Assembly: GCF_900312815.1 (NCBI RefSeq)
Contig: NZ_OMPE01000005.1
Location: forward strand, 186,001-250,000
DNA length: 64,000 nucleotides
Reading direction: 5' to 3'
Source of the DNA: Aquimarina sp. AU474
Lineage (GTDB): Bacteria > Bacteroidota > Bacteroidia > Flavobacteriales > Flavobacteriaceae
Each line of letters begins with the position of its first letter. The first letter of the stretch is position 1. Below are positions 10,595 to 38,688 of this stretch, piece after piece. The notes below the pieces were generated by a model. That model worked only from the letters and a program-made list of their open reading frames with translations, made no database searches and was not told the DNA's origin. The position numbers and the translations under genes were made by a program.

Positions 10595-10637
10595 TGACAA
10601 ATATCATAGTTTACAGATAATTTCATGGTTACTTTTG
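10595..10637 (+). promoter_or_regulatory. CRP/FNR-type site plus -7 box for the usp-cls operon
   Basis: TGACAAATATCA (10595-10606) is an inverted repeat of the type TGAY-N4-RTCA. A -7 box TACTTTTG (10630-10637) follows after a 23-base gap, and the usp gene starts 20 bases later. The same arrangement recurs before many genes in this island. The proposed binder is the response regulator-CRP fusion encoded at 32167-33222 (inference). Confidence 0.75.
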
Positions 10638-10656
10638 GAATATTAAAATCAATTCC

Positions 10657-11496
10657 ATGAAAAATATTCTATTACCAACTGACTTTTCTCCAAATTCAAG
10701 AAACGCTATTAATTATGCAATGGAATTCTTCAAAAAGGAATTGTGTACGTTTCATATTCTTCATGTACAAAAAGTATCAAATTACACCTCTGACGATCTA
10801 ATGGCAGCTCCTGCCAATACTTCCGTTCATCAATCGGTAATTCATGAAGTAAAAGAAAAACTTACCGTTTTAAATCAAGAATTACAGAAAAAATTTGATC
10901 AAGAAAACTACAGTTTCGATACACATGTAGATTATGATGTTTTTACCGATGCTATTAAACAAATCGTAAAATCCCAAAACATTGATCTTATTGTTATGGG
11001 AACTAATGGTGCTACAGGGTCTAAAGAAGTTATTTTTGGCAGCAACACTTTGCATGTAATTCGTAAAATTGATTGTCCTGTTTTTATCATTCCCGAAAAT
11101 TATGCATATAAAACTCCAAAAAAAATTCTGTATACAATCGATTATAATGATAACTTTACTACGTCGGGCATAACACCTTTAACAGATCTATTAATTAAGC
11201 ACAAAGCTTCATTGAAAATTTTAAAAATCAAGGAAGATGAGACTATTACTATTTCAGAATTTGATGATAAAAAAAATATGAACGTTTTTTTTAAAGAAAT
11301 AAATCATACGTTTCATACTATTACAAATGTCCCTACTACGCTTGCGATAGAGAGTTTTGTACAGATTATGAATATCGATATTAATACAATGTTTGTTAAA
11401 AGGGAGACATTTCTTGAACGTTTTTTTTACGGCTCGAAGACTTCAAAAATAAATTATGGAACCAGAATACCTCTACTCATTATGCATAAGTCTTAA
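10657..11496 (+). CDS. Universal stress protein, two-domain
   Basis: This 279-residue cytoplasmic protein has two tandem UspA folds. The first half (1-150) has ILLPTDFS at the start and the nucleotide-binding motif G-x2-G-x9-GS in GTNGATG...FGSNT, so it should bind ATP. The second half (about 155-279) keeps the fold outline, starting ILYTIDY, but has lost that motif and ends LLIMHKS. It is the most diverged of the eight Usp genes in the window in its C-terminal half. It is probably co-transcribed with the cardiolipin synthase gene 15 bases downstream, from the promoter at 10595-10637. Confidence 0.88.
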   Translation: MKNILLPTDFSPNSRNAINYAMEFFKKELCTFHILHVQKVSNYTSDDLMAAPANTSVHQSVIHEVKEKLTVLNQELQKKFDQENYSFDTHVDYDVFTDAIKQIVKSQNIDLIVMGTNGATGSKEVIFGSNTLHVIRKIDCPVFIIPENYAYKTPKKILYTIDYNDNFTTSGITPLTDLLIKHKASLKILKIKEDETITISEFDDKKNMNVFFKEINHTFHTITNVPTTLAIESFVQIMNIDINTMFVKRETFLERFFYGSKTSKINYGTRIPLLIMHKS

Positions 11497-11511
11497 ACGT
11501 AATAAAAAAAC

Positions 11512-12933
11512 ATGACCTCAGCAATTATTCTTAGTATTTACATCATCATAGGAATAATCATTGTAGGAAGATTGTTATTATATGGTATGCGACCTACCAA
11601 AACCTTAGGGTGGCTACTCGTCATTTTTACAATCCCAGTTGGAGGCATATTACTATATCTATTATTGGGTAGGAATCGTAGAAAAAACAAATTATTCAAA
11701 CTACAGCAAACTGATGAAATCATTTCATCTCTGAATAATGAAAAACTATTAGCTTCTCCCATTAAACAGAAAGATTACAAAGAACACATTAAGGTAATTA
11801 AGCTTATTGTTCAAAACTCTGGTTTTATTTCATCTTCAGGAAATCGTCTTAAAATTCTTAAAAATGGCAATGCTACTTTTACAGCAATATTTGAGAGTCT
11901 TAAAAAGGCTGAAAAATTTATTCATCTAGAATATTACATCTTTGAAGAAGGCAGATTAGCAGATAATCTTTTTCAACTCTTTGAGATAAAAGTAAAAGAA
12001 GGTGTTGAGATTCGTATTTTATATGATGGTATTGGTAGCAGGCATCTTAGCAATCAATATATCCAAAAATTAAAAAATATAGGAGTAGAAGTTTGTAGTT
12101 TTTTACCCATTAGATTTGGGAAATTTTTGTCTTCATTAAACTACAGAAATCATCGCAAAATCATTGTTATAGACAATAAAATTGCATTTACAGGTGGGAT
12201 TAATGTTTCTGATAAGTATGTAACAGGAGATTCCTATTTAGGAATATGGAACGACATGCATTTGCAACTCGAAGGCCCTATTATTCATAGTTTACAAGCT
12301 ATCTTCATTATGGATTGGAATCTTATAAATAGTACCACTCCCCTCCTCGCTTCAGAATATTTTTCTCCAGTTATTGAAATGGGAGATATTGCTGCTCAAA
12401 TTGTTCATAGTGGTCCCGATGAAGATTTTTCGGCAACTCAACAACTGTATTTTTCACTTATAAATGAAGCCAAAGACTATGTATATATTACAAATCCTTA
12501 TATCATTCCTGGCGAAGCTATATTAGAAGCTCTAAAAGTGGCCGCTTTAAGTGGTGTTGATGTGCGATTATTACTCTCGGACAAATCAGACAATTTTATT
12601 GTACGTTGGTGCGTAAGGTCATATTTTGAGAGTTTACTCCAAGCTGGCGTAAAAATTTATTTATTTTTAGATGGTTTTGTACACAGTAAAACCATAGTAG
12701 TAGATGACACAATTTGTTCGATTGGTACAACTAATCTTGATATTAGGAGTTTTGAACAAAACTATGAAGTAAATGTGGCCATTTATGATGATGACTTTTC
12801 TATAGCGCTTAAAAACGATTTTATATCTGACCTTAAAAAAGGATATCAACTCAACTACCAAAAATTTATCAATAGACCTTTGAAGGAAAAATTAAAAGAA
12901 GGAATCGCAAAAATCTTTAGCCCTGTCTTATAA
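11512..12933 (+). CDS. cls: Cardiolipin synthase
   Basis: This membrane-bound phospholipase-D-family enzyme joins two phosphatidylglycerols into cardiolipin. Two N-terminal helices (about 3-23 and 33-53, the PLDc_N region) anchor it. The two HKD motifs are HRKIIVID (about 212) and HSKTIVVDD (about 388). Each is followed by the usual GG or GTTNLDIRSF block. Its length of 473 residues is normal for ClsA-type enzymes. It lies directly behind a usp gene under a CRP/FNR-type site, so membrane remodelling seems to be part of the island's response. Confidence 0.92.
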   Translation: MTSAIILSIYIIIGIIIVGRLLLYGMRPTKTLGWLLVIFTIPVGGILLYLLLGRNRRKNKLFKLQQTDEIISSLNNEKLLASPIKQKDYKEHIKVIKLIVQNSGFISSSGNRLKILKNGNATFTAIFESLKKAEKFIHLEYYIFEEGRLADNLFQLFEIKVKEGVEIRILYDGIGSRHLSNQYIQKLKNIGVEVCSFLPIRFGKFLSSLNYRNHRKIIVIDNKIAFTGGINVSDKYVTGDSYLGIWNDMHLQLEGPIIHSLQAIFIMDWNLINSTTPLLASEYFSPVIEMGDIAAQIVHSGPDEDFSATQQLYFSLINEAKDYVYITNPYIIPGEAILEALKVAALSGVDVRLLLSDKSDNFIVRWCVRSYFESLLQAGVKIYLFLDGFVHSKTIVVDDTICSIGTTNLDIRSFEQNYEVNVAIYDDDFSIALKNDFISDLKKGYQLNYQKFINRPLKEKLKEGIAKIFSPVL

Positions 12934-12955
12934 AAAACTTCAAGATTGTTGGGTA

Positions 12956-14765: not shown

Positions 14766-14808
14766 TAAATGTACTTTCTTCATGGAAAAAGAAAAATGAC
14801 TTTCATCA
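14766..14808 (-). promoter_or_regulatory. CRP/FNR-type site plus -7 box for hsp20
   Basis: TGACTTTCATCA (14797-14808) is followed on the minus strand, after 23 bases, by TACATTTA (14766-14773), a near match to TAnnTTTG. The geometry equals that at the other sites of the island. Confidence 0.7.
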
Positions 14809-16637: not shown

Positions 16638-16680
16638 TAAATGTATTATCATTATAGCAGGTAAACTATGATAATTATCA
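16638..16680 (-). promoter_or_regulatory. CRP/FNR-type site plus -7 box for usp (16610)
   Basis: TGATAATTATCA (16669-16680) is a perfect 12-bp palindrome. TACATTTA (16638-16645, minus strand) follows after 23 bases. The palindrome overlaps the stop codon of the upstream usp gene. Confidence 0.75.
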
Positions 16681-17552: not shown

Positions 17553-17595
17553 TAAAACTATTTCCATTTTTTATGGAATACTATGACAATTCTCA
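17553..17595 (-). promoter_or_regulatory. CRP/FNR-type site (one mismatch) plus -7 box for usp (17529)
   Basis: On the minus strand TGAGAATTGTCA (17584-17595) departs from TGAY-N4-RTCA at one base. TAGTTTTA (17553-17560) follows after exactly 23 bases. The site overlaps the stop of the upstream usp gene. Confidence 0.6.
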
Positions 17596-18441: not shown

Positions 18442-18458
18442 CTGTTTATTATTTATAA

Positions 18459-19313: not shown

Positions 19314-19330
19314 TTTACTTTTTTATTAAT

Positions 19331-20176: not shown

Positions 20177-20200
20177 AACATAGAAGTTGTGATATACTCT

Positions 20201-20274
20201 CAAAACTAATTTATCAAAGTAACCCAAACTATGATTTTTATCATATGATATCATATCGGTCTTTATCATTTTTG
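20201..20274. promoter_or_regulatory. CRP/FNR-type site serving divergent usp operon and ccoI
   Basis: The palindrome TGATTTTTATCA (20232-20243) sits between divergent genes. On the minus strand TAGTTTTG (20201-20208) lies 23 bases away. On the plus strand CATTTTTG (20267-20274) also lies exactly 23 bases away, with one mismatch in the -7 box. One bound regulator could activate both operons. Confidence 0.75.
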
Positions 20275-20291
20275 CAACAAACAATATCTAT

Positions 20292-23560: not shown

Positions 23561-23634
23561 CAAAGCTCTTAAACAAATAGAAAATAAAACCTGACAAATG
23601 TCATTTTTTAAGAAAACATGCCCTACTACTTTTG
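23561..23634. promoter_or_regulatory. CRP/FNR-type site for the cbb3 oxidase operon
   Basis: TGACAAATGTCA (23592-23603) has both half-sites intact. TACTTTTG (23627-23634) follows 23 bases later and drives ccoS onward. On the minus strand GAGCTTTG (23561-23568) stands at the same 23-base gap before the DUF2892 gene, as a poorer -7 box. Confidence 0.78.
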
Positions 23635-23849: not shown

Positions 23850-26045
23850 ATGGAAATGGAACAATTCTATTACGATAATAAAATCGTAAAAAATTTCTTA
23901 TATGCCACTATGTTTTGGGGTATTATCGGAATGTCAGTTGGGTTATTATTGGCATTTTTATTTTTATTCCCTAACCTCACAGATGGAATTTCTTGGTTAA
24001 GTTTTGGTCGTTTAAGACCATTACATACCAACGCAGTAATTTTTGCTTTTGTAGGTAATGCCATTTTTGCCGGAGTATATTATTCTACGCAACGATTACT
24101 AAAAACCCGAATGTTTAGTGATTCATTAAGCAAAATAAATTTTTGGGGATGGCAATTAATCATAGTTGGTGCTGCCATATCACTGCCCTTAGGATATACT
24201 ACATCTAAAGAATATGCAGAATTAGAATGGCCATTTGATATAGCGATCGCAATAATTTGGGTAACCTTTGGGTGGAATCTTATAGGTACCATTCTTAAAC
24301 GTAGGCAGAGACATATGTATGTCGCGATCTGGTTTTATATAGCAACTGTGGTTACCGTGGCAGTACTTCATATTTTTAATAGTTTAGAACTTCCGGTAAG
24401 TGCTTTAAAAAGTTATTCAGTTTATGCTGGAGTACAAGATGCATTAGTACAATGGTGGTATGGCCATAATGCAGTAGCTTTTTTTCTTACCACACCCTTT
24501 CTTGGATTGATGTATTATTTTATTCCAAAAGCGGCCAACAGACCTGTTTATTCATATCGATTATCTATTGTGCATTTTTGGTCTCTTATATTTATCTATA
24601 TCTGGGCAGGGCCTCATCACCTTCTCTACTCTTCATTACCGGATTGGGCACAAAATCTTGGAGTAGCCTTTTCTATAATGTTGATCGCACCATCCTGGGG
24701 AGGCATGATTAATGGGTTATTAACACTACGAGGCGCTTGGGATAAAGTACGTACTGATCCTGTTTTAAAATTTATGGTAGTAGCCATTACAGGATATGGT
24801 ATGGCGACTTTTGAAGGTCCTATGCTTTCTCTAAAAAATGTGAATGCAATCGCTCACTTTAGCGATTGGGTAATTGCTCATGTTCATGTTGGCGCATTGG
24901 CCTGGAATGGTTTTATGACCTTCGGTATGGCATATTGGTTGGTTCCCAGATTATTTAAAACCAAACTATGGTCTATCGCACTCGCCAACGTACATTTTTG
25001 GATAGGTACTTTAGGTATAATTCTATACGCACTACCCATGTACGTAGCTGGATTTGTGCAAGCCTCTATGTGGAAACAATTTAATCCAGATGGTAGTTTA
25101 GTTTACGGAAATTTCTTAGAGACTGTAAATGAAATTATCCCTATGTACTGGATGAGAGCTATAGGAGGAAGCATGTTCATTATTGGGATGTTTATAATGC
25201 TCTACAATATCATTAAAACTATTAAATCTGGCAGTAAAGCAACCGATGAGTTAGCTGAAGCTGCTCCTTTGATTAAAGTATCAAAACATAAAACATCCAA
25301 AGAAGGGTATCATACCTGGTTAGAAAGAAGACCTGTTAAATTGACCATTTTTGCTACCATCGCTATTCTTATTGGAGGAGCAGTACAGATTGTACCCACA
25401 TTAATGGTAGAATCTAATATCCCAACAATTACCAGTGTAAAACCATATACACCTCTAGAATTAGAAGGAAGAGATTTATATATCAGAGAAAGTTGTGTCT
25501 CTTGTCATTCTCAAATGATTCGTCCATTTCGTAGTGAAGTAGAAAGATATGGTGAATATTCAAAAGCAGGAGAATATGTTTATGATCATCCTTTTTTATG
25601 GGGTAGTAAACGAACAGGACCAGATTTAATGAGGATAGGCGGTAAATATTCAGACAACTGGCACCTTAATCATTTCTACGATCCGCAAACTACTTCGTCT
25701 GGATCCATTATGCCAAGTTATAAATGGTTAATCAAAAATAAATTAGACCGATCCAATACTGAAACTAAGATGAAAGCGATGGTTACACTTGGAGTACCCT
25801 ATACCACTGAAGAAATTGCAAGAGCACAACAGTGGATGGATGAACAGGCTACCCAGATTGAGAAAAACCTGTACAGTGATCCTGATTTTGCCAAGACGTA
25901 TGAAGCAGATAAAAAATATGCCCAAGAAAACAAAGAAGATTTTATAGAAATGCGTAATCGTGAAGTCATAGCCCTCATAGCATACATTCAACGATTAGGA
26001 ACAGATATAAAGGTTAAAACTAAAGAAGATTTAGGGCAAAATTAA
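23850..26045 (+). CDS. ccoNO: cbb3 cytochrome oxidase, fused CcoN-CcoO subunits
   Basis: This is the catalytic core of the high-affinity terminal oxidase, reducing O2 to water in the inner membrane. Residues about 1-470 are CcoN: about twelve helices with heme and CuB ligands in RPLHTNAVIF, WWYGHNAVAF, AGPHHLLY and HVHVGALAW. Residues about 500-731 are CcoO: a membrane helix, then one c-type heme motif CVSCH at residue 549 and the Met-bearing GSIMPSYKWL. Fusion of the two subunits is common in Bacteroidota. An alternative ATG lies two codons downstream of 23850. Confidence 0.95.
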   Translation: MEMEQFYYDNKIVKNFLYATMFWGIIGMSVGLLLAFLFLFPNLTDGISWLSFGRLRPLHTNAVIFAFVGNAIFAGVYYSTQRLLKTRMFSDSLSKINFWGWQLIIVGAAISLPLGYTTSKEYAELEWPFDIAIAIIWVTFGWNLIGTILKRRQRHMYVAIWFYIATVVTVAVLHIFNSLELPVSALKSYSVYAGVQDALVQWWYGHNAVAFFLTTPFLGLMYYFIPKAANRPVYSYRLSIVHFWSLIFIYIWAGPHHLLYSSLPDWAQNLGVAFSIMLIAPSWGGMINGLLTLRGAWDKVRTDPVLKFMVVAITGYGMATFEGPMLSLKNVNAIAHFSDWVIAHVHVGALAWNGFMTFGMAYWLVPRLFKTKLWSIALANVHFWIGTLGIILYALPMYVAGFVQASMWKQFNPDGSLVYGNFLETVNEIIPMYWMRAIGGSMFIIGMFIMLYNIIKTIKSGSKATDELAEAAPLIKVSKHKTSKEGYHTWLERRPVKLTIFATIAILIGGAVQIVPTLMVESNIPTITSVKPYTPLELEGRDLYIRESCVSCHSQMIRPFRSEVERYGEYSKAGEYVYDHPFLWGSKRTGPDLMRIGGKYSDNWHLNHFYDPQTTSSGSIMPSYKWLIKNKLDRSNTETKMKAMVTLGVPYTTEEIARAQQWMDEQATQIEKNLYSDPDFAKTYEADKKYAQENKEDFIEMRNREVIALIAYIQRLGTDIKVKTKEDLGQN

Positions 26046-26055
26046 AAATAAAACT

Positions 26056-26241
26056 ATGCTAAAATTTATAAAAGGACATATGGAAAGCATTGACGGAATT
26101 GAGATATATCCGATGATATCTCTTTTAATATTCTTCATCTTCTTTGCTGCATTATTCTGGTGGGTAATCACTGCAAAAAAAGAACACATTAAAGAAGTAA
26201 GTAATATTCCATTAGAAAACGAAAAAGAGTTAATACTATGA
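26056..26241 (+). CDS. ccoQ: cbb3 oxidase small subunit CcoQ
   Basis: This 61-residue membrane protein has one helix (about 19-37, ISLLIFFIFFAALFWWV) and a charged cytoplasmic tail. Size and position between ccoNO and ccoP identify it as CcoQ, which stabilises the complex. It overlaps the ccoP start by four bases. Confidence 0.8.
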   Translation: MLKFIKGHMESIDGIEIYPMISLLIFFIFFAALFWWVITAKKEHIKEVSNIPLENEKELIL

Positions 26242-27194
26242 GAAGTACAGCATCCTACATAAGAGTAATTGTTTTTCTACTCATATCATATGTACTAATA
26301 GAGTCGATTATAGAGTCGGGTGAAGAATCAGTATTTATGACACAACCCATTGCATGGTTGGCTATGGGTATAGTTTTATTATTTGCTATTGCCATTGAAA
26401 TATGCTTAGAAGCACTTAAAGTTGTATTGTTTAAGTCTTTAAAACCTAAAGCTCAAGAACGATACCTTATAGCTGAGCAACACCGAAAAGAACAACAATT
26501 TAGAGGAGTTAAAAATATATATCTAAAACTTCTGGACAGTAAACCGGTTGAAGAAGAAGAAGAAATCATATTAGATCATAATTATGACGGAATCAAAGAA
26601 TTGGATAATAACCTCCCTCCTTGGTGGGTATATGGTTTTTATGCTACTATTTTATTTGGAGTAATTTATTTAGCTCGTTTTCATGTATTTAATGATTACA
26701 ATCAAACCGAAGAATATGAGTCTGAAGTAGCTGCAGCACTAATTGCTATAGAAGAATACAAAAAAAATGCTAAGGATTTGGTTGATGCAAATACCGTAAC
26801 CATACTCACTGATGTCTCTGATATCAGTGCAGGAAAAACCATATTTACAGCGAACTGCGTAGCATGCCATAAAGCTGATGGCGGAGGAGGAATTGGGCCT
26901 AACTTAACGGATCCTTATTGGATTTTGGGTGGAGGAATTAAAAACGTTTTCCAAACAATTTCTGAAGGAGGTCGAGATGGCAAAGGAATGGTTGCATGGA
27001 AACAAACTTTAAAACCAGCCGAAATGGCTCAAGTAGCGAGTTATGTAATGACTCTTGGAGGTACAACCCCAGTAGAACCTAAAGAACCTCAAGGAGAAGT
27101 TTGGAGCGATCCTGATACTTCTATAAAAGAAACTCCCTCTGAAGAAACCCCAGAAACAGCTTCTGATTCAACATCAGTTGTAGTAAACGAATAA
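26238..27194 (+). CDS. ccoP: cbb3 oxidase cytochrome c subunit CcoP, single heme
   Basis: This membrane-anchored cytochrome c feeds electrons to the oxidase core. The 318 residues have two N-terminal helices (about 8-25 and 35-60). A PPWWVYGFYATILFGVIYL helix (about 130-150) follows, which is the CcoP hallmark. There is one periplasmic cytochrome domain with CVACH at residue 207 and the axial Met region MVAWKQTLKP. Classical CcoP has two CxxCH motifs and I see only one. The C-terminus is an acidic Glu/Thr/Ser/Pro tail. Confidence 0.92.
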   Translation: MRSTASYIRVIVFLLISYVLIESIIESGEESVFMTQPIAWLAMGIVLLFAIAIEICLEALKVVLFKSLKPKAQERYLIAEQHRKEQQFRGVKNIYLKLLDSKPVEEEEEIILDHNYDGIKELDNNLPPWWVYGFYATILFGVIYLARFHVFNDYNQTEEYESEVAAALIAIEEYKKNAKDLVDANTVTILTDVSDISAGKTIFTANCVACHKADGGGGIGPNLTDPYWILGGGIKNVFQTISEGGRDGKGMVAWKQTLKPAEMAQVASYVMTLGGTTPVEPKEPQGEVWSDPDTSIKETPSEETPETASDSTSVVVNE

Positions 27195-27217
27195 CCCATC
27201 ACAGAAAAAGAGATCCA

Positions 27218-28639
27218 TTGGAAACAACAGGAAAAGAAACATTCAGAGATTCTATCGGAACCATAAATGAAGAGGGGAAACGTGCTTGGGTGTATCCTAA
27301 AAAACCGAGCGGTCGATTTTATAAATATCGTAAATGGGTAAGTTATAGTTTATTAATATTTCTATTTTCTGCACCATTTATTAAAATCAATGGTAATCAA
27401 TTTCTATTGTTTAATGTGCTAGAACGACGTTTCAATATTTTTGGAGCTCCGTTCTGGCCACAAGATTTTCATTTATTCGTTATTTCAATGATCATAGGAA
27501 TAGTATTTATTATACTATTCACAGTAGCTTTTGGTAGAATATTTTGTGGATGGATATGTCCACAAACTATATTCATGGAACTAGTTTTTAGAAGAATCGA
27601 ATATTGGATTGAAGGCGATCGCGGAAAACAAATACGACTGGATAAGCAACCATGGAATATCAATAAAATTAGAAAGAGGCTCACTAAATGGATACTCTTT
27701 TTTATCATTTCTTTCTTGATAGCCAATGTATTTCTAGCATATTTAATCGGTAGTGATCAACTCATAAAATATATTACAGATGGGCCTCTTATACATGTAA
27801 GCACTTTAATCTCTCTTCTTATTTTTACTGCCGTTTTCTACTTTGTATTTGCCTGGTTTAGAGAGCAGGTATGTATTATCGCATGTCCTTATGGTCGTTT
27901 ACAAGGTGTTTTGTTAGATTCAAAATCTATCGTAGTAGCATATGATTATAAACGAGGTGAAAAAGAGATTGGAAGAGCGAAATTTAAAAAAAATGAGAAT
28001 AGATCCACTAGTGGTAAAGGAGATTGCATCGATTGTTTTCAATGTGTTCATGTATGTCCAACGGGGATAGATATCAGAAATGGAACCCAACTAGAATGTG
28101 TAAACTGCACAGCATGTATTGATGCTTGCGATCATATGATGGAAAGTGTGAATCTGCCCAAAGGACTTATTCGATATGCCAGTGAGGAAAACATCGCTAA
28201 AAAAGCAAAATTTACGTTTACTCCTAGGCTAAAAGGATACAGTGCCGTATTATTAATTTTAACAGGTATTTTCTTAGGAATGTCTTTTTTAAGAAATGAC
28301 GTCGAAGCTACTATTTTAAGGTTACCTGGCCAGTTGTATGAGCACAAAGGAGATAATATCATAAGTAATGTATACACATATAAATTAGTAAACAAAACTA
28401 CCCTGGATATAGAAAATATTCATTTTGAATTATTATCTCATACCGGAAAAATTGAAATTGTAACACACAAAAATTTTAGTGTACCTGGGCAAGGACTTGC
28501 AGAAGGAACCCTATTTATTGAAATCAATAACGCCGCCTTAACAGGGGATAAAAATCGATTAAAAATAGGATTATACAGCAAGGACAAATTAATTGAAACA
28601 ACCACCACTGCATTTTTAGGGCCAAGGAGTTATCGCTAA
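27218..28639 (+). CDS. ccoG: Cytochrome oxidase accessory protein CcoG (RdxA/FixG)
   Basis: This is a polyferredoxin in the inner membrane, linked to copper handling during cbb3 assembly. The 473 residues have helices in the first 220 residues, including GRIFCGWICPQTIFMELVFR. Two ferredoxin-type Cys sets follow (CIDCFQCVHVCP and CVNCTACIDAC, about 270-305). After another helix there is a C-terminal immunoglobulin-like domain in the periplasm. Translation appears to start at TTG 27218, 23 bases past ccoP, as no earlier ATG fits. Confidence 0.93.
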   Translation: METTGKETFRDSIGTINEEGKRAWVYPKKPSGRFYKYRKWVSYSLLIFLFSAPFIKINGNQFLLFNVLERRFNIFGAPFWPQDFHLFVISMIIGIVFIILFTVAFGRIFCGWICPQTIFMELVFRRIEYWIEGDRGKQIRLDKQPWNINKIRKRLTKWILFFIISFLIANVFLAYLIGSDQLIKYITDGPLIHVSTLISLLIFTAVFYFVFAWFREQVCIIACPYGRLQGVLLDSKSIVVAYDYKRGEKEIGRAKFKKNENRSTSGKGDCIDCFQCVHVCPTGIDIRNGTQLECVNCTACIDACDHMMESVNLPKGLIRYASEENIAKKAKFTFTPRLKGYSAVLLILTGIFLGMSFLRNDVEATILRLPGQLYEHKGDNIISNVYTYKLVNKTTLDIENIHFELLSHTGKIEIVTHKNFSVPGQGLAEGTLFIEINNAALTGDKNRLKIGLYSKDKLIETTTTAFLGPRSYR

Positions 28640-28692
28640 CAAATTGTTTTTAATAGTTAAAACCATATTCAGAATCTTAAAAAATAGAAATC

Positions 28693-29139
28693 ATGAAAAT
28701 AAACTGGGGCACAGCCATTGTATTCGTATTCATAGGATTTATAAGTTTCATATTATTTTTTGTAGTGAAAATGAATACTAACAAAAAGTATGAACATGAT
28801 TTAGTTACTGAAGATTATTACAAAAAAGAACTTGCTTTTCAAGAAGAGATCAATGCAGAAAAGAATGCAAATGCCCTAAAGAATAATGTTTCAATTAAAA
28901 AAACTACTAACGGAATAGTAGTAATTTTTCCGGTTGATCAAAACTATACTACAGTGTCTGGAACAATTTCCTTATATCGCCCCTCTAACAAAAATTTAGA
29001 TTTCGAAATTCCCATAGTACTTTCTAATTCAGAAATTCTAATTCCAAAAGATCGTTTAATTGAGGGTCGTTGGGCTATAACAGTACGTTGGAACTTTAAA
29101 AACACTACTTACTTATTTAAAGAATCAATAACATATTAA
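28693..29139 (+). CDS. ccoH: CcoH/FixH-family protein
   Basis: This 148-residue protein has an N-terminal membrane helix (about 8-26). It is followed by a periplasmic beta domain starting HDLVTEDYYKKELAFQEEI, which is the conserved FixH block. FixH is needed for maturation of cbb3 oxidase, probably together with the CcoI copper pump. It ends exactly where the next gene begins and lies in the cbb3 operon. Confidence 0.9.
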   Translation: MKINWGTAIVFVFIGFISFILFFVVKMNTNKKYEHDLVTEDYYKKELAFQEEINAEKNANALKNNVSIKKTTNGIVVIFPVDQNYTTVSGTISLYRPSNKNLDFEIPIVLSNSEILIPKDRLIEGRWAITVRWNFKNTTYLFKESITY

Positions 29140-29844
29140 ATGGTAATTTCTGCATTTATATTAGGGTTATTAGGGAGTTTTCACTGTATAGGAATGTGTG
29201 GTCCTATTGCATTTATGCTACCGCTCGATCATAAAAACAAACTAAAAAAACTGTTTCAGGTTTCTTTATATCACACAGGTCGTTTATTAGCCTACAGCAT
29301 TTTGGGGGTGTTCTTTGGTCTAATTGGTAAAAGCTTATACCTTTTTGGAATGCAACAAATACTATCTATAATAATCGGCATCTTTATGATTATGATGGTC
29401 CTAGTTCCTAAACAAATTTTAAATACATATAATTTTTCAAAGCCGATTTATAAGGTAATATCTAATATCAAAAATGCTTTGGGTAAAGAACTAAGAAAAA
29501 AAACATCTGATACTTTTTTAACTATTGGTTTTTTAAATGGTTTTCTCCCCTGTGGTTTGGTGTATATGGCAATTTTTGGAGCACTTGCCCTAGGTAACTC
29601 CATAGAAAGTAGTATTTATATGCTCTTTTTTGGAATAGGAACCATTCCTTTAATGACCACAGTTGTATATACGAGTAATTTCCTTTCCAGGAATAACATA
29701 CGACCGCACATCCAAAAAATTATTCCCGTTTGTATTATAATTATTGGCTTACTATTCATTCTTCGCGGAATGGGATTGGGTATTCCCTATATCTCACCAA
29801 AACCTATAATAGAGATTGTTTCTACTAATTATAATTGTCACTAA
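29140..29844 (+). CDS. TauE/SafE-like membrane protein with Cys pair
   Basis: This 234-residue protein has six predicted helices and the opening motif LGSFHCIGMCGPIAF, with two Cys close together. A matching block GFLNGFLPCGLVYMA is near residue 140. This is the cytochrome biogenesis/sulfite exporter (TauE/SafE, DsbD-like) group often placed at the end of cbb3 operons. A role in copper or reductant transfer during oxidase assembly is likely but inferred. No gap separates it from ccoH. Confidence 0.85.
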   Translation: MVISAFILGLLGSFHCIGMCGPIAFMLPLDHKNKLKKLFQVSLYHTGRLLAYSILGVFFGLIGKSLYLFGMQQILSIIIGIFMIMMVLVPKQILNTYNFSKPIYKVISNIKNALGKELRKKTSDTFLTIGFLNGFLPCGLVYMAIFGALALGNSIESSIYMLFFGIGTIPLMTTVVYTSNFLSRNNIRPHIQKIIPVCIIIIGLLFILRGMGLGIPYISPKPIIEIVSTNYNCH

Positions 29845-32103: not shown

Positions 32104-32146
32104 CAAATGTATTAGGATGCATTAATGAAAAGAATGACAAATATCA
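32104..32146 (-). promoter_or_regulatory. CRP/FNR-type site plus -7 box for usp-hemN operon
   Basis: TGACAAATATCA (32135-32146) is followed on the minus strand after 23 bases by TACATTTG (32104-32111), a full match to TAnnTTTG. The usp ATG begins 22 bases further on. Confidence 0.78.
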
Positions 32147-32166: not shown

Positions 32167-33222
32167 TTATTCTATTAATTGAAGTGCGGGTAAATCCAAA
32201 ATTTTAATGGTTCTTCCTTCGATTTCTATAAGTCCATCTTTTTTAAAACTGGATAGTGTGCGTATTAAACTCTCTGTGGCAATACCAGCAACACTGGCTA
32301 GATCATTTCTAGATATCTTGATACTCTCATCAGGTTTTTTGTTTAGTACCTCTACAAATTGTAAGATCGTTTGTGCCGTCTTTTTTCGAACAGAACTATA
32401 AGCCATTTGTAATAATTGCTCTTTTATCTCGGATAGATTATCACTAAGCAACTCCATGAGTTCTAATGAAATATTTTTACTTTTTTCTAATATTTCTTTT
32501 AAATTATTTTTTGATATTCCGGCCAATTCTGTGTCTTCAACGGCAGTTGCAGATTCTTGATACGGGGTATTATCAACGAATGAAGTAAAACCTAGAAAAT
32601 CATCGGCTTTAAACAAAGCAGTAATAAGTTCTTTACCACTTTCATCCATTTTGTGGGTTTTAATCACACCTTTTATAATTAAAAAAATATTGTTAGAATG
32701 ATCTCCTTCTTTAAAAATAGAAACTCCTTTTTTATACTTGGAGATATCACCATGATCATCAAAAAAATTCTTAAGTTCATGTAGGTTTCTAAGGCTATCC
32801 TTAGATTCCTCTTTTGGTGTATGAAATTGATCTTTCAATATTTTAGAAATAATCTCTGCTTTTGCCAGGCGACTTTCTATGGCACTTAATAACTCATCTT
32901 CTTCAAAAGGTTTGGTTAGATAATCATCAGCTCCCATATCCATTCCCTTACGAATTTCTTTATGTTCCGTTTTCGCAGATAAAAAAATAAATGGTATTTG
33001 ATTCGTATTAGTATTATCTGATAATGCTTCCAATACTCCATAGCCATCAACCTCTGGCATCATTATATCACACACAATAATATCTGGTTTTTCTTCTTGT
33101 GCTTTGGCAATACCTACTTTTCCATTTGGAGAAGTAATCACCTTATAATTTGACAGTTCTAGAAGTTCTGCAGTATTTTCTCTTAATGCAGTATCATCCT
33201 CGATTAATAGTATGGTTTTCAT
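32167..33222 (-). CDS. Response regulator fused to a CRP/FNR-type DNA-binding protein
   Basis: This 351-residue transcription factor contains a receiver domain (1-120, acceptor Asp52 in CDIMMPE, Lys in LTKPF). A cyclic-nucleotide-type beta barrel follows (about 150-245) with a linker and dimer helix. A CRP-type winged helix (about 285-345) has IATESLIRTLSSFKKDG as recognition helix. Glu and Arg of the CRP/FNR contact triad are kept. There is no Fe-S Cys cluster as in FNR, and the Arg that binds cAMP phosphate is not seen, so phosphorylation is the likely signal. It is translationally coupled to the kinase upstream (TAATG). It is the best candidate to bind the TGAY-N4-RTCA sites in this island. 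Confidence 0.9.
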   Translation of the reverse strand: MKTILLIEDDTALRENTAELLELSNYKVITSPNGKVGIAKAQEEKPDIIVCDIMMPEVDGYGVLEALSDNTNTNQIPFIFLSAKTEHKEIRKGMDMGADDYLTKPFEEDELLSAIESRLAKAEIISKILKDQFHTPKEESKDSLRNLHELKNFFDDHGDISKYKKGVSIFKEGDHSNNIFLIIKGVIKTHKMDESGKELITALFKADDFLGFTSFVDNTPYQESATAVEDTELAGISKNNLKEILEKSKNISLELMELLSDNLSEIKEQLLQMAYSSVRKKTAQTILQFVEVLNKKPDESIKISRNDLASVAGIATESLIRTLSSFKKDGLIEIEGRTIKILDLPALQLIE

Positions 33223-34457
33223 TATTGGTTATGATTATTAGTAATAGGTATTTGTACTGTGAACGTGGACCCATAATTTTCTTTACTCTTAAAAGTGACA
33301 GTTCCTCCAAGGTTTTCTACATGACTTTTAACAATGTTAAGTCCAATACCCGTTCCTTGATCCAAGAGTGCATTCTCTGCTCTAAAATATCGTTTAAATA
33401 TATATATTTGTTCCTTTTTGGGTATCCCTATACCTTGGTCTACAATATGAAAAGTAAGTAGGTCATTTTCAAAAATCGCTTGCAGGTCGATTGTTGTATT
33501 CTCTCCAGAATATTTTACAGCATTACGTATTAGATTCGTTAATATAAGTTCTAATATTTTCTCATCAAAATCAATAATATGATCATCAATATCTTTTGGG
33601 TATTTAATTCTTTGCCCATCTTTTAGCAACATATTGGCATCATAGACTACCTCATTAACTACCTTACTTAAAGGAAATTTAGTGAATTTATATTTTACTT
33701 TGCCGCTTTCTAAGCGCTCTACAGATAAAAAATCATTAAGAATATTATCCAGAAATTTCACTTTGTTCTTGATTGTAGAAAGGTGTTTATCTCTTTTTTC
33801 TTGTTGTTCAGTTTTGGTATACTTGCCTATTAAAGTTGTAGAAGTAAGAATACCACTTAGTGGTGTTTTAAATTCATGAGATACCAAAGAAAGGAATTTG
33901 GTTTTTAATTCGTTTAAATCTTGCTCTTTTTTCAAAGACTCTTTGATCTTAGCCTCGGCCTCCATTCTAAGTTTTACTTCTTCTTTAAGCTCTTCAATTG
34001 TTTGTCTTAGTTCCTCAGTTCTTTTTTCTATCTTCTTTTCTAATGCTATGTTGAGCTCTTTTATCTGATTTTCCTTTTCTTTTCTCTCAGTAATATCAAT
34101 AACTAAAGCCATAATATAATTATGACCGTATATAGTAAAAGGATTTAAACCAGCTTCTACTGGGAATTCTGTACCATCTTTTCTTATACCATAAAGATCT
34201 CTTCCTTTACCCATTTTTCTTTTTTCTGAGTGTTTTCCAAAGTCTTCAAAATGATTTTTATGGTTATGATGATATTTCTGAGGTATTAATATATTTAGTT
34301 TTTGCCCCACTAACTCTTGTTCCTTATATCCAAAAATATCATTAGCAGAGCCATTAGTTGCTACGATAACTTGCTCTTCATTAACGATAATGATACCTTC
34401 TGAAACTGCCTCAGTTAACAGATTAAAAATGTTGTTGTTTTTTGCAAAAACTTTCAT
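33222..34457 (-). CDS. Soluble PAS-domain sensor histidine kinase, FixL-like
   Basis: This 411-residue kinase has no membrane helix, so it senses an internal signal. A PAS domain (about 12-125) is followed by a long coiled coil (about 125-185). The HisKA domain has phosphoacceptor His194 (LVSHEFKTPL), and a HATPase domain follows (NLIRNAVKYS, GTGIGLNI). In the PAS domain, H66 and R86 fall at the positions of the proximal heme His and the distal Arg of FixL. These residues also occur in PAS domains without heme. It is coupled to the response regulator and lies next to cbb3 oxidase genes. An O2 or redox signal is probable, not proven. Confidence 0.9.
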   Translation of the reverse strand: MKVFAKNNNIFNLLTEAVSEGIIIVNEEQVIVATNGSANDIFGYKEQELVGQKLNILIPQKYHHNHKNHFEDFGKHSEKRKMGKGRDLYGIRKDGTEFPVEAGLNPFTIYGHNYIMALVIDITERKEKENQIKELNIALEKKIEKRTEELRQTIEELKEEVKLRMEAEAKIKESLKKEQDLNELKTKFLSLVSHEFKTPLSGILTSTTLIGKYTKTEQQEKRDKHLSTIKNKVKFLDNILNDFLSVERLESGKVKYKFTKFPLSKVVNEVVYDANMLLKDGQRIKYPKDIDDHIIDFDEKILELILTNLIRNAVKYSGENTTIDLQAIFENDLLTFHIVDQGIGIPKKEQIYIFKRYFRAENALLDQGTGIGLNIVKSHVENLGGTVTFKSKENYGSTFTVQIPITNNHNQ

Positions 34458-34461: not shown

Positions 34462-34536
34462 CAAATGTAATAATTTTGGACCGTTACTAGACCTGACCAA
34501 TGTCATAAAAAAAAAGACTGTGTCGAATTATCTTAG
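34462..34536. promoter_or_regulatory. CRP/FNR-type site between kinase/regulator operon and TerB-like gene
   Basis: TGACCAATGTCA (34494-34505) lies between divergent genes. To the right TATCTTAG (34529-34536) is 23 bases away. To the left on the minus strand TACATTTG (34462-34469) is 24 bases away. The site would make the kinase/regulator pair autoregulated. Confidence 0.7.
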
Positions 34537-34996: not shown

Positions 34997-35039
34997 TGAT
35001 TTATATCATATTTTAATACCTACTGTGTTGCTAATTTTA
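34997..35039 (+). promoter_or_regulatory. CRP/FNR-type site plus -7 box for small membrane protein
   Basis: TGATTTATATCA (34997-35008) is followed after 23 bases by TAATTTTA (35032-35039). The gene starts 24 bases later. Confidence 0.7.
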
Positions 35040-35062: not shown

Positions 35063-35347
35063 ATGACACTATATGCAAAAATAAATGCGGATTTCTCAGA
35101 AAATTATATAGGATATTCTGCCTTGGCGATCATTGCATCAACCTGTTTGGGTTCAATAGCAATTATGACAACTCTTCTAAATGGAAATGCTCCAATACAA
35201 ATGTTTTTGGTCTTTTTAACTGTTGTTGTCTGTAGTGCTCATAATGCCGCTATATTAACCGTTCAGAAACCTAAATTAGTTCTAGATCTTTTGGTCTTAA
35301 GTTTACTCATAAACACCTTAATAATTATTGGCAACGGGTTGTTTTAA
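35063..35347 (+). CDS. Small membrane protein, unknown function
   Basis: This 94-residue protein has three predicted helices (about 17-37, 47-65 and 73-92), with no charged catalytic residues and one Cys-Ser-Ala-His pair in the middle helix (VVVCSAHNAA). I do not recognise a family. It is preceded by a CRP/FNR-type promoter and followed by a hairpin terminator, so it forms a single-gene unit of the island. A role in the membrane under low oxygen is a guess. Confidence 0.65.
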   Translation: MTLYAKINADFSENYIGYSALAIIASTCLGSIAIMTTLLNGNAPIQMFLVFLTVVVCSAHNAAILTVQKPKLVLDLLVLSLLINTLIIIGNGLF

Positions 35348-35420: not shown

Positions 35421-35463
35421 TGATTGATGTCATTTTTTATGAATGGCTACTGCTTTACTTTTA
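35421..35463 (+). promoter_or_regulatory. CRP/FNR-type site plus -7 box for lipoprotein-trx-deoC unit
   Basis: TGATTGATGTCA (35421-35432) is followed after 23 bases by TACTTTTA (35456-35463). The lipoprotein gene starts 25 bases later. Confidence 0.7.
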
Positions 35464-35488
35464 TGAATAACATCCTAAAATATATATT

Positions 35489-36373
35489 ATGAAAAAAATA
35501 ACCATTGGTCTCATTTTTTTAAGCTGTATAGCTTGTAAAAATGATATTTCAATTCAAAAAAATACACCAATAAAAGAAACAGAAAACAATTCTAATCTTG
35601 ATAAAAATAGCTTTGATTCTATTACAGTATTCTCTGAAGACAATCTTGATCATGAAAAAACTAAAGAATTAAAAAGAGAACGTCTAATCAAAGCCAAAGA
35701 CGATAAACCAAATTTACAAGAGCTAGTGGTCACAAAAAGTTTTTTTAAAGAAGAAGATCAATATCTTCTAGATTATAGATACCCTTATCTTAATGAAAAA
35801 ATAGATCCTGGATATCAAGTCTTCAATAATTTTATTCAAGAAAACTATCTTGATATCAAAAAAACAGAAAACGAAATACTTGAAGATAAAGAATTGCTTT
35901 GCGATACTTTAAAAATCCATAGGTTTAGAGATAAAAGAATCATTGACTACAAAGTCTACAACACAAGCACTAAAATGTTAAGTACCCTTCTTTATAAAGA
36001 AAATTATTACTCGGGGATGCGATATTCTACTTATCTTTTTGATTGCGTAAATTTCGACTTAGAAAAACACTCTTTTGTTTATTTTAATGATTTTTTTGTG
36101 AGTAACGCCGAAGAGGAAATATATCAAACTATAAATTCAATCATTAGTGAAAATATTACATCAGGAGAGTTTTATCTTGATTGCTGGGAACTCTCTAGAG
36201 GGGACTTTAAAGCGTATAAAAATAATTTTGTCGTAAATGATAGCATTATAGAATTTTACTTTGATGATTGTGTAATCTGTCCATCATATACAGGGACTTA
36301 CTCGGTAGAGATTCCAATTAAAAAAATTATGCACCTCATAAAAAAATATAATGAGCCCAAAGAGGTAAGTTAA
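35489..36373 (+). CDS. Lipoprotein, RsiV/DUF3298-like
   Basis: This 294-residue protein has a lipoprotein signal (FLSCIACKND, Cys near 16). The mature part has a segment with DYRYPYLNEKIDPGYQVFNNFIQ (about 100-122), like the DUF4163 start. A C-terminal segment has FDDCVICPSYTGTYSVEIP (about 262-280), like the end of DUF3298. That pair of domains occurs in RsiV-type anti-sigma factors and related periplasmic proteins. The match is moderate. It starts the unit that leads to trx and deoC and has a CRP/FNR-type promoter. Confidence 0.6.
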   Translation: MKKITIGLIFLSCIACKNDISIQKNTPIKETENNSNLDKNSFDSITVFSEDNLDHEKTKELKRERLIKAKDDKPNLQELVVTKSFFKEEDQYLLDYRYPYLNEKIDPGYQVFNNFIQENYLDIKKTENEILEDKELLCDTLKIHRFRDKRIIDYKVYNTSTKMLSTLLYKENYYSGMRYSTYLFDCVNFDLEKHSFVYFNDFFVSNAEEEIYQTINSIISENITSGEFYLDCWELSRGDFKAYKNNFVVNDSIIEFYFDDCVICPSYTGTYSVEIPIKKIMHLIKKYNEPKEVS

Positions 36374-36426
36374 TTGGATCAACTTTTAATTGTTTGTCTT
36401 AATTTTACATTAAAAAATAAACAATT

Positions 36427-36726
36427 ATGAAAAGTAGTTTTAGTAATATTATAGACTCTAACATTCCTGTACTTGTCGATTTTTATGCAGATTGGTGTGG
36501 TCCGTGCAAAATGCTTGCTCCTATACTCAAGGAAGTCAAAGATGAATTAGGAGAACAAATAAAAATTGTAAAAATAGATGTTGACAAGAATCAAAATTTG
36601 GCTTCAAAATATCAAGTTAGAGGGGTACCTACTATGTTATTGTTTAAAGAAGGAAAACAACTTTGGAGGCAATCTGGAGTGTTACAAAAAATAGATCTCG
36701 TAAACATTATCAATTCGTACAGATAA
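36427..36726 (+). CDS. Thioredoxin
   Basis: This 99-residue cytoplasmic thiol-disulfide reductase has the active site WCGPCKM (about 23-29) and the cis-Pro block RGVPTMLLFKEGK (about 70-82). The length is that of a minimal thioredoxin. It lies 53 bases after the lipoprotein gene and one base before deoC, so it is probably in their transcript. Its presence in the island suggests thiol repair during the low-oxygen or stress response. Confidence 0.93.
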   Translation: MKSSFSNIIDSNIPVLVDFYADWCGPCKMLAPILKEVKDELGEQIKIVKIDVDKNQNLASKYQVRGVPTMLLFKEGKQLWRQSGVLQKIDLVNIINSYR

Positions 36727-36727
36727 A

Positions 36728-37369
36728 ATGCAACTGAACAGATATATAGATCATACTTTACTAAAAGCAAATACAACTGTAGGTGATATTAAAAAACTTT
36801 GCTCTGAAGCCAAAAAATATAACTTTTATGCAGTTTGTGTAAGTAGTTATTATGTTACCTTGGCCAAAACAGAGCTTAGAAATCGTGATGTTCAAGTAGC
36901 CTCGGTAATTGGGTTTCCTTTAGGTTCTACATCATCTGCTATCAAGGTATTTGAAGCTAATGAATGCGTGAATCAAGGTGCTGATGAAATAGATATGGTA
37001 TTAAACATTGGTTTACTTAAATCGGGATATCATAACATTGTAGAAGATGAAATAAAATCTGTAAAAAAGACAATTGAAAATAAGATATTAAAGGTAATAT
37101 TTGAGAACTGTTATCTTACAGATGAAGAAAAGAAAATAGCTTGTAAATTATCAATTAATGCAGGAGCAGACTATATAAAAACCTCAACAGGTTTTGGTAG
37201 TACCGGTGCAACTGTTGAAGATGTTATCCTAATGAAAAAAGAGGTTGGAAATAGTTTAAAGATAAAAGCGTCTGGAGGTATTCGCAATATTGAAACAGCC
37301 AAAAAATTTATAGATTTAGGTGTTTCTAGAATCGGTACTTCATCAGGCATTCATATCGTTAGTCACTAA
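36728..37369 (+). CDS. deoC: Deoxyribose-phosphate aldolase
   Basis: This class I aldolase splits 2-deoxyribose 5-phosphate into acetaldehyde and glyceraldehyde 3-phosphate, linking nucleoside breakdown to glycolysis. The 213 residues start with YIDHTLLKANTT, and the Schiff-base Lys is in DYIKTSTGFG. KASGGIRNIETA and SRIGTSSG complete the TIM-barrel signature. It is one base after thioredoxin. A DNA-salvage enzyme in a stress operon would allow carbon recovery in non-growing cells (inference). Confidence 0.93.
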   Translation: MQLNRYIDHTLLKANTTVGDIKKLCSEAKKYNFYAVCVSSYYVTLAKTELRNRDVQVASVIGFPLGSTSSAIKVFEANECVNQGADEIDMVLNIGLLKSGYHNIVEDEIKSVKKTIENKILKVIFENCYLTDEEKKIACKLSINAGADYIKTSTGFGSTGATVEDVILMKKEVGNSLKIKASGGIRNIETAKKFIDLGVSRIGTSSGIHIVSH

Positions 37370-37372
37370 AAA

Positions 37373-37401
37373 ACCTGCTAAATTATTGTGATTTAACAGG
37401 T
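37373..37401. terminator. Hairpin between convergent deoC and usp
   Basis: An 11-bp stem with one mismatch (37373-37383 with 37391-37401) and a 7-base loop lies between convergent genes. The T tracts are weak, so it is a probable rather than certain bidirectional terminator. Confidence 0.45.
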
Positions 37402-37426
37402 CATTGACCAATAAAAAGTTTTGAAT

Positions 37427-38263
37427 CTAGATTTTGAACGTAATTACAGGTTTATTTGCATGATTAGCTATATCTTCTCCGATACTGCCATTAAAGAAAT
37501 GAGATAAACCTCTTCGTCCGTGAGTAGATAATGCAATAACATCTGCGTTTATTTTTTGGCTATAGTTAAAAACTCCACTCTCTACCGAAAAATCACTTCT
37601 AATCTTCACCTTATCAAAATTTTCAAGATTACCGGAATCTGCTTTGAAAATAAACTCCATAATTCGATCTTCTATTTGATTAGAACTTTTAAATCGCTCT
37701 CCTGGAAGGTTAACGTACAACAAATTTACATTAGCATTGAAAAATTCAAATAATCTAAGAGCATTGAGATAGGGTCTTATATTATCCATTTTAAAATCAC
37801 ATGCAAAAATGGCCTCTTTAATAATAAACTCATCGATATGATCCTTAATCACTAAAACAGGTACATCAGATGTACGTACAACTTTTTCTGTATTAGACCC
37901 AACAAAAATTTCGCTTAACCCACTACTCCCATGAGATCCCATTACGATAAGGTCTACTTGATTTTCCTTTGCTACATCATTTATTTCGCTAAAAATTTTA
38001 TAATTCCTAACAGTTTCGGCTATTTTAATACCTTTTAGATATTCTTTATCTAGGAAACTTATAAAACCTCTTTCGGCTAATTTCATGTAATAAATAGCTT
38101 CTGCTGTTTCTTGACTCTCATCTTTGGTTAAAATCGCTTCAGACAATCCCAACATATGCAGTACTAGTATTTCTGCTTCTTGTTGTTTTGCTATATCTGC
38201 TGCAACTTTTAATGCATATTCTGAATACTTCGAAAAATCAATAGGTACAAGGATCTTTTTCAT
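37427..38263 (-). CDS. Universal stress protein, two-domain with both ATP motifs
   Basis: This 278-residue tandem UspA protein differs from the other seven: both halves keep the nucleotide motif. The first has GSHGSSG...VGSNT and the second STHGRRG...NGSIG. It begins KILVPIDFSKYSEYALKVAADIA and ends NKPVITFKI. This symmetric type is common across Bacteroidota and probably represents the ancestral form, while the others are island-specific derivatives. It is 54 bases downstream of the hibernation factor gene and probably shares its promoter. Confidence 0.9.
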   Translation of the reverse strand: MKKILVPIDFSKYSEYALKVAADIAKQQEAEILVLHMLGLSEAILTKDESQETAEAIYYMKLAERGFISFLDKEYLKGIKIAETVRNYKIFSEINDVAKENQVDLIVMGSHGSSGLSEIFVGSNTEKVVRTSDVPVLVIKDHIDEFIIKEAIFACDFKMDNIRPYLNALRLFEFFNANVNLLYVNLPGERFKSSNQIEDRIMEFIFKADSGNLENFDKVKIRSDFSVESGVFNYSQKINADVIALSTHGRRGLSHFFNGSIGEDIANHANKPVITFKI

Positions 38264-38317
38264 GATAAATTATCTTTTAAGTTTAAAATTTGAACATTTT
38301 TATTTTGATAATGTTCA

Positions 38318-38617
38318 TTATTTCGTTTTGAACAACTTTTTACGTTTCTCAATTTGTTTTTCGATATCCGACAGGGTTTCTTTCACTGCTAATTCAAAGT
38401 TCTCTTCATTAGAAATTGCAAAAACTTGTGAACCTGGCAGATTAAGTTTTATCTCACAAATTTTTCCTTTACCCTTAGGATCATTTTCACGTTTTAAAAA
38501 GACATTACTATCAATAATTTCTTGATTTTTCTTTCCCAGCTTTCCTAATTTATCTAATACATATTGGGATAAAGTCTCGCTAGGAGATATTTTTACATAT
38601 TGAATATTAATAATCAT
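38318..38617 (-). CDS. hpf: Ribosome hibernation promoting factor, short form
   Basis: This small basic protein of 99 residues has the RaiA/HPF beta-alpha fold. It begins INIQYVKISPSETLSQYVLDKLGKL-like and continues to CEIKLNLPGSQVFA and SDIEKQIEKRKKLF. Such factors bind the 30S subunit and pair or silence ribosomes in stationary phase. It lacks the C-terminal dimerisation domain of long HPF. It has a CRP/FNR-type promoter and precedes a usp gene, which supports a dormancy role for the island. A second, housekeeping HPF may exist elsewhere. Confidence 0.88.
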   Translation of the reverse strand: MIINIQYVKISPSETLSQYVLDKLGKLGKKNQEIIDSNVFLKRENDPKGKGKICEIKLNLPGSQVFAISNEENFELAVKETLSDIEKQIEKRKKLFKTK

Positions 38618-38645
38618 AATTTGGGTTTTAATATTAATTATTCAT

Positions 38646-38688
38646 CAAAATTAGGCATAGATAATAGTCCTAGAAATGATAAATATCA
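38646..38688 (-). promoter_or_regulatory. CRP/FNR-type site plus -7 box for hpf
   Basis: TGATAAATATCA (38677-38688) is followed on the minus strand after 23 bases by TAATTTTG (38646-38653), a full -7 match. The hpf start is 29 bases further on. Confidence 0.78.

Follow-up and report, generated by a model that had tools for sequence, protein, structure and literature searches.

A receiver-CRP fusion and a FixL-like kinase as probable centre of a class II low-oxygen regulon in Aquimarina sp. AU474

The DNA analysed here, a 64,000-nucleotide stretch of the 4.84-Mb genome of Aquimarina sp. AU474 (G000:C3:186001-250000, contig NZ_OMPE01000005.1; hereafter the window), raises the question of which protein reads a short palindromic site that recurs at an almost fixed distance from a promoter box, and which signal that protein conveys. 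A first-pass annotation had named a plain FixK/FNR-like activator. The CRP/FNR-type output that it saw is present, but the protein also carries an N-terminal receiver (REC) domain and is paired with a FixL-like kinase, so that the signal probably enters the regulator through phosphorylation. The best candidate regulator is this receiver-CRP fusion (REC-CRP) tied to a FixL-like kinase, which the annotation had missed. Judged from domains, motif and conservation, the region is probably the compact core of a low-oxygen regulon run by the pair from class II sites. The two genes at its centre are:

32167..33222, minus strand: response regulator of 351 residues with CRP/FNR-type output (REC, cNMP-binding fold and HTH_Crp_2), the proposed activator
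33222..34457, minus strand: PAS-HisKA-HATPase sensor kinase (Pfam) with a FixL-like PAS, in the same unit as the regulator

The spacing between site and box carries the case. Sites were defined by the core pattern TGAYNNNNRTCA, the strict box by TANNTTTR, and the gap as the number of bases from site to box. In the window a box stands at gap 23 for nine of the 34 directional exact sites, where 0.07 would be expected (P about 5e-17 for a given single gap), while every other gap from 0 to 69 yields at most one. The same was observed in 40 stretches of about 20 kb each round relatives of the regulator (41 loci with the window), with the box at gap 23 for 157 of the 520 directional sites where 0.9 would be expected; any other gap from 0 to 69 yields 0 to 7, and four control palindromes gave 0, 1, 0 and 0 at gap 23. 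Across 149 genomes of the family, this one included, gap 23 accounts for 1109 occurrences of the strict promoter (121 genomes) and gap 20 for 7 (6 genomes). A set of 80 named regulator loci, fetched with up to 5 kb on each side and possibly overlapping the unnamed ones, has gap 23 at 224 of 688 directional sites, the next commonest gap having 8, and 79 of the 80 loci hold such a promoter within the fetched stretch. The first-pass annotation had rested its case on the constant geometry, and these controls in the window, the related loci and the family genomes bear it out: the site-box observation is confirmed and is far stronger than the reading of a single window could show.

The whole-genome scan that the annotation had proposed was run, and all nine exact matches to the strict promoter fall inside a 28-kb island of the window, with none elsewhere; its choice of the 32167-33222 protein as activator is supported, that protein being the best candidate. 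Allowing one mismatch gives 20 matches, three in the island and 17 outside. A regulon beyond the island in this genome was rejected on these numbers, as the outside matches are close to background (a reversed-pattern control gives 14) and 13 of the 17 lie inside open frames. A looser pattern (gaps 14 to 32, box ending in G) gives 24 matches, seven at gap 23 (five of them in the island) and four at gap 15. As separate observations, possible further targets are G000:C4:431031, by eye before a porin-like outer membrane protein, and G000:C3:116984, before a 68-residue CxxC membrane peptide; at G000:C6:117240 a site with a box at gap 24 lies near another CRP-type gene (C6:116922-117104).

The core pattern occurs 17 times in the window against 4.9 expected, and none of 100 shuffles reaches 17; the earlier estimate that the palindrome alone would turn up a few times by chance agrees with the 4.9 per window that shuffles give. 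Ten of the eleven sites first reported are exact, and that at 17584 carries one mismatch. As intergenic sites three need qualification: the sites at 16669 and 17584 each overlap the final 3 bases of a usp gene, and that at 20232 falls within an open reading frame (ORF) as listed from TTG, in which the Usp domain begins only at residue 37. The strict box stands at gap 23 in ten of 14 directions (10595+, 14797-, 16669-, 17584-, 20232-, 23592+, 32135-, 34997+, 35421+ and 38677-) and at gap 24, not 23, in 34494-. Three directions have imperfect boxes (20232+ CATTTTTG, 34494+ TATCTTAG and 38677+ CTTTTTTA), so the earlier count of 13 of 14 directions at gap 23 holds only with these included. The 38677+ direction is doubtful, the next plus-strand ORF of at least 80 residues that starts downstream lying only at 39128. 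At none of the seven remaining palindromes (13215, 21965, 22751, 26693, 36582, 41462 and 59669) does a strict box stand at 23 to either side. The sites are listed below, with putative operons assigned from spacing:

10595..10606, plus strand: site with box TACTTTTG at gap 23, before usp 10657-11496 and then cls 11512-12933
14797..14808, minus strand: site with box TACATTTA at gap 23, before hsp20 14280-14723
16669..16680, minus strand: site with box TACATTTA at gap 23, before usp 15759-16610
17584..17595, minus strand: one-mismatch site with box TAGTTTTA at gap 23, before usp 16678-17529
20232..20243, divergent site: minus side TAGTTTTG at gap 23, before three usp genes 17593-20284; plus side imperfect CATTTTTG at gap 23, before a ccoI-like heavy-metal ATPase 20292-22679
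23592..23603, plus strand: site with box TACTTTTG at gap 23, before the cbb3 genes
32135..32146, minus strand: site with box TACATTTG at gap 23, before usp 31243-32082 and hemN 29856-31220
34494..34505, divergent site: minus side TACATTTG at gap 24, before the kinase-regulator unit; plus side imperfect TATCTTAG at gap 23, before a 134-residue protein 34563-34967
34997..35008, plus strand: site with box TAATTTTA at gap 23, before a 94-residue protein 35063-35347
35421..35432, plus strand: site with box TACTTTTA at gap 23, before a DUF3298 protein, a thioredoxin and a DeoC-like aldolase 35489-37369
38677..38688, minus strand: site with box TAATTTTG at gap 23, before an hpf-like gene 38318-38617 and usp 37427-38263; plus side CTTTTTTA doubtful

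From what position would the protein act? The palindrome centre lies 29.5 bases upstream of the first base of the box, and in E. coli a site centred at -41.5 likewise lies 29.5 bases from the first base of the -10 box (-12). Measured in this way, the spacing equals the classic class II (-41.5) geometry, with the fixed site-to-box distance of such promoters at gap 23, and it supports the interpretation of the region as a regulon of class II promoters under a CRP/FNR-type protein. The primary-sigma promoter consensus of Bacteroidota has a TAnnTTTG -7 box, and such a box is present here. A profile of 163 gap-23 promoters, the window included, in which core and box were preset by selection so that only the remaining positions carry information, reads (A/C)TGAY, four A/T-rich bases with T last, RTCAT, a T-rich run, some 17 open bases and finally the box, whose last base is A in 46%. 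No conserved TTG was found between site and box. A T follows TCA in 98% of these promoters, while the mirror position has C in 55% and A in 36%; the site is therefore asymmetric, with the polymerase side more constrained.

The regulator's modules were assigned by Pfam (Response_reg 2.1e-28, cNMP_binding 6.7e-19, HTH_Crp_2 4.2e-13). Its receiver domain (residues 4-116) has the acidic pair, phospho-acceptor Asp, Ser/Thr and Lys of a response regulator, and D9, D10, D52, S82 and K104 are invariant in 14 sequences, the window's included; the recognition helix is highly conserved across 41. With a cNMP_binding and HTH_Crp_2 output the regulator is no FixJ, which joins a receiver to a LuxR-type helix-turn-helix, and with a receiver domain it is no FixK, which stands alone. 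FNR has an N-terminal cysteine cluster and a C122-type cysteine; six cysteine columns were found in the alignment, and in each of them REC-CRP shows a gap or a different residue. Nor is it a cAMP (cyclic AMP) receptor protein, as the residues aligned to the cAMP contacts of CRP differ, among them the phosphate-binding cassette Glu/Arg, which bind cAMP in CRP. Cyclic AMP or iron-sulfur input to REC-CRP was ruled out on these aligned residues. The best 25 of its 105 NCBIfam matches are all below cut-off, and among the best 60 of 322 matches to solved structures the best stretch lies in the REC or the CRP part, never spanning both. At E 1e-40 the regulator was found in 66 of the 149 family genomes, this one included, each of which has at least three strict gap-23 promoters; such co-occurrence figures across genomes are descriptive and ignore kinship. 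In the phylum, 57 of 395 genomes have a match at the same threshold, one of them to REC only and the other 56 in nine families. Among the named holders listed, the nearest are eight records of Aquimarina with 81 to 88% identity, in a listing from which those closest to the window may have been omitted; Dokdonia pacifica, Nonlabens ulvanivorans and Maribacter species are named there as well.

The kinase gene ends at the regulator's first base. A same-strand kinase adjoins the regulator, by distance, in 39 of the 41 loci, the window included, and in the remaining two a longer regulator ORF, with its start further upstream, overlaps the kinase. The best solved matches of the PAS part are the FixL heme PAS (1.3e-15) and then DosP, both labelled oxygen sensors; these matches comprise 17 distinct sequences, the last and weak ones being blue-light and other sensors. 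The alignment to the FixL PAS has no gaps, and by it H66 is presumably the proximal heme-ligand histidine and R86 the distal arginine. Among 39 kinases, the window's included, H66 and the phospho-acceptor H194 are present in all 39 and R86 in 35. By sequence the protein thus has the order of a FixL kinase, namely a heme PAS with proximal His and distal Arg followed by HisKA and HATPase_c, although it stays below the FixL equivalog cut-off of NCBIfam (103.6 bits vs 850). It may work like FixL though outside the rhizobial equivalog. In the 80 named loci the histidine could be judged in 75 (five being too short) and was found in 71, with another residue in three and the kinase absent in one; R86 is kept in 56 of 74. 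Furthermore, 20 of 33 genomes outside the family with a regulator match contributed loci to a distant set, for which neighbour lists hold the first eight entries; the kinase is adjacent in 17 of these 20, with H66 in 16 of 17 and R86 in 13 of 17. By these matches the kinase-regulator pair is also present in other families of the class.

Does the pair control itself? The proposed autoregulation is weakly supported. With one mismatch allowed at the fourth base or its mirror, a palindrome lies upstream of the kinase in 35 of the 41 loci, consistent with possible autoregulation, but the kinase-side box is off register or missing: it stands at 24 in three loci, one of them the window, at 25 in six and at 21 and 26 in two each, and is otherwise absent. 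The opposite, divergent side has gap 23 in 23 of 41. The box at 24 or 25 in nine loci may point to a different control mode. The 134-residue protein encoded divergently from the kinase (34563-34967, plus strand) has no Pfam or NCBIfam match.

Which genes would be controlled? Each of the island's eight usp genes lies behind a site, either immediately or further along a closely spaced unit. The other candidate targets are cls, hsp20, the ccoI-like ATPase (20292-22679, a name that rests on family and context), the cbb3 genes, hemN, the hpf-like gene, thioredoxin with aldolase, and small proteins. The first-pass annotation had one activator drive most of these; for usp, hsp20, the ccoI-like ATPase, cbb3 and hpf this is supported, but hemN, thioredoxin and cls come under a site only as later genes of units drawn from spacing. 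The respiratory genes are:

23850..29844, plus strand: cbb3 oxidase genes, with a ccoNO fusion, ccoP, ccoG, a 148-residue protein and a DsbD_2-family membrane protein

These genes presumably form one operon, with 192 bases between ccoNO and ccoP; ccoN and ccoO are fused in one reading frame (23850-26045, plus strand). Among the 30 best-scoring ccoNO loci, 29 have one palindrome within 500 bases upstream, always at gap 23 (16 of 16 in REC-CRP genomes and 13 of 14 in genomes without it), and ccoNO was found in at least eight of the 20 distant regulator loci. Downstream of the 163 profiled promoters lie usp (83), the 134-residue type (19), hpf (10) and ccoNO (9); 24 stand before ORFs unmatched to window genes and three before none. 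Outside this set, an odd response-regulator output was seen at 39466-40674 (minus strand), in which a receiver domain is fused to a family-2 glycosyltransferase.

The promoter type extends beyond REC-CRP. Among the matches listed, many genomes have stand-alone proteins of about 225 to 260 residues that are 30 to 38% identical over the CRP part. Of 28 such sequences pulled for alignment, one LytTR regulator was set aside, and the 27 kept have an alike recognition helix, an N-terminal CxxC and a C122-type cysteine in all. One of them matches the solved structure 2gau best (residues 35-222) and FNR next (residues 4-221), and it matches three of the four cysteines that bind the iron-sulfur cluster in FNR. 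The 66 REC-CRP genomes have a median of 10 promoters and none at zero; 57 genomes without REC-CRP but with a CRP-part match (E 1e-15, cysteines not checked in each) have a median of 4 and six at zero; among 26 with neither, 22 are at zero and the exceptions have 1, 7, 8 and 20. The motif is therefore not unique to REC-CRP, since the same promoter type is found in genomes with the stand-alone homologue instead, and by the ccoNO and genome counts the architecture is broader than REC-CRP, with the cbb3 genes a steady member. In ten hand-chosen genomes with both proteins, 35 of 47 sites near REC-CRP are TGAT...ATCA, while TGAC or GTCA is present in 18 of the 22 close to the stand-alone gene (p 1.6e-5). 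This test took 30 kb for REC-CRP, 40 kb for the stand-alone protein and one stand-alone gene per genome (a second match exists in some), and it used 150 of 156 sites, with 81 far sites excluded; the half-site split in these dual genomes is no more than suggestive. A takeover of TGAC-type sites by REC-CRP in REC-only genomes was tried and rejected (40 of 67 promoters at 18 REC-only loci vs 53 of 96 at 23 dual loci, p 0.63), the loci having been sorted by match counts and many dual loci holding both genes within 20 kb.

Taken as a mechanism, the kinase, a soluble protein, would sense oxygen by binding it at the heme of a FixL-type PAS. With the heme unliganded it would phosphorylate Asp52 of the regulator from the same unit, a protein whose CRP/FNR output module would let it fill the rhizobial FixJ and FixK roles together. 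The phosphorylated dimer would bind (A/C)TGAY-N4-RTCAT directly and activate transcription from the class II position, at starts predicted from the box, and its targets would include the cbb3 oxidase, the CcoI-like ATPase, hemN, universal stress proteins, hsp20 and the hpf-like protein.

Several observations weigh against this picture. Three of the 20 distant loci have no adjacent kinase, R86 is replaced in 18 of 74 named and four of 17 distant kinases, and in the distant families the gap-23 signal is weak, at six of 168 directional sites against at most two for each other gap from 5 to 44. Of the 83 genomes without REC-CRP, 55 have at least one promoter, and G048, G138 and G147 have 20, 7 and 8 despite no regulator match at E 1e-15 (completeness 82%, 99% and 73%, respectively). 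The structure model of the regulator has a mean predicted local distance difference test (pLDDT) of 73 and a predicted template modelling (pTM) score of 0.53, with low confidence at residues 131-149 and 248-276, so that control of the CRP module by REC is not visible in it. Seven other HTH_Crp_2 proteins of the genome are possible binders as well.

With these seven the genome encodes eight HTH_Crp_2 proteins, and together with the promoters of genomes that have only the stand-alone homologue they would allow another CRP/FNR protein to bind the sites, REC-CRP being merely a neighbour. That has a low probability: at E 1e-15 the CRP part finds no second match in this genome, all nine exact promoters cluster round the REC-CRP gene, 79 of the 80 named loci have the gap-23 promoter, and REC-CRP and the stand-alone type have similar recognition helices, from which those of the other seven differ by eye. 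A somewhat weightier doubt, though still an unlikely one, concerns the input, which could be nitric oxide, carbon monoxide, redox state or a ligand of extra sensor parts instead of oxygen. Heme PAS domains can bind several gases, R86 is not universal, and some relatives' kinases have 500 to 809 residues against the window's 411; the targets, however, include the cbb3 oxidase, its accessory ccoG and the oxygen-independent hemN, and the PAS matches FixL best and then DosP.

The protein could also repress from its sites, or the spacing could reflect competition with RNA polymerase instead of contact, as the kinase's own promoter, whose box is shifted by one or two bases in nine of the 41 loci, might suggest. 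Repressors tolerate many positions, however, and a single exact spacing at 157 sites without a conserved TTG is what class II activation predicts, which leaves this reading very improbable. That chance or base composition made the pattern has practically no probability left; it could account for a core palindrome expected about five times per window, but it is refuted by the spacing controls. Activation by the phosphorylated REC-CRP from class II sites stands as the preferred and probable reading.

Each part of the system has known parallels. The rhizobial FixL-FixJ-FixK (FixK2) cascade likewise has a FixL-like heme-PAS kinase, a CRP/FNR-type activator, the core TGAY-N4-RTCA, and the cbb3 oxidase with accessory genes and hemN as targets. 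Here, in contrast, the FixJ and FixK functions would share one protein, so that no transcription step would lie between them; T follows TCA (98%) where FixK/FNR sites have A, the -7 box is that of Bacteroidota, and the targets extend to many usp genes, hsp20 and an hpf-like gene. FNR and the family's stand-alone FNR-like homologue share the CRP/FNR output module, class II spacing and low-oxygen targets. FNR senses oxygen by its own iron-sulfur cluster; of its four ligand cysteine positions the stand-alone homologue keeps three and REC-CRP none. The mycobacterial DosR-DosS/DosT dormancy regulon is alike in a heme kinase that controls universal stress proteins and Hsp20, but DosR has a LuxR-type output, and phylum, site and promoter differ. 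The REC-CRP architecture may be listed in Galperin's response-regulator output-domain surveys. Stand-alone Crp-family proteins of Bacteroidota (2gau, CrpPg and MalR-like) have a related CRP/FNR module, among them CrpPg of P. gingivalis (PMC12040651) and the MalR-like homologues of Flavobacteriales with predicted carbon sensing (PMC8510549); they are described there without receiver domain or heme kinase, and other signals are proposed for them. In a literature search outside subscription journals and preprints, no REC-CRP regulator of this kind was found among the matches listed, nor did the string TAnnTTTG occur among those on class II, FNR or Crp, and the combination of parts was likewise not found there.

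A wider proposal, for which the evidence is evenly balanced, is that across Bacteroidia a heme-PAS kinase drives a response regulator with a CRP/FNR-dimer output, phosphorylation replacing cAMP or an iron-sulfur cluster as the switch; flavobacteria would exchange it for, or combine it with, an FNR-like iron-sulfur protein on the same -41.5 architecture, and dual genomes would begin to split the targets by the fourth half-site base (TGAT vs TGAC). The literature search gave little on oxygen sensing in aerobic Bacteroidota or on activator contact with a polymerase at the TAnnTTTG box, and this system offers one regulator, one site, one spacing and a directly testable promoter list. In conclusion, it would provide a natural example of a CRP module that phosphorylation may drive, and, with two kinds of input on the same type of promoter, it would open to study how a regulon can be kept when its sensor is exchanged.

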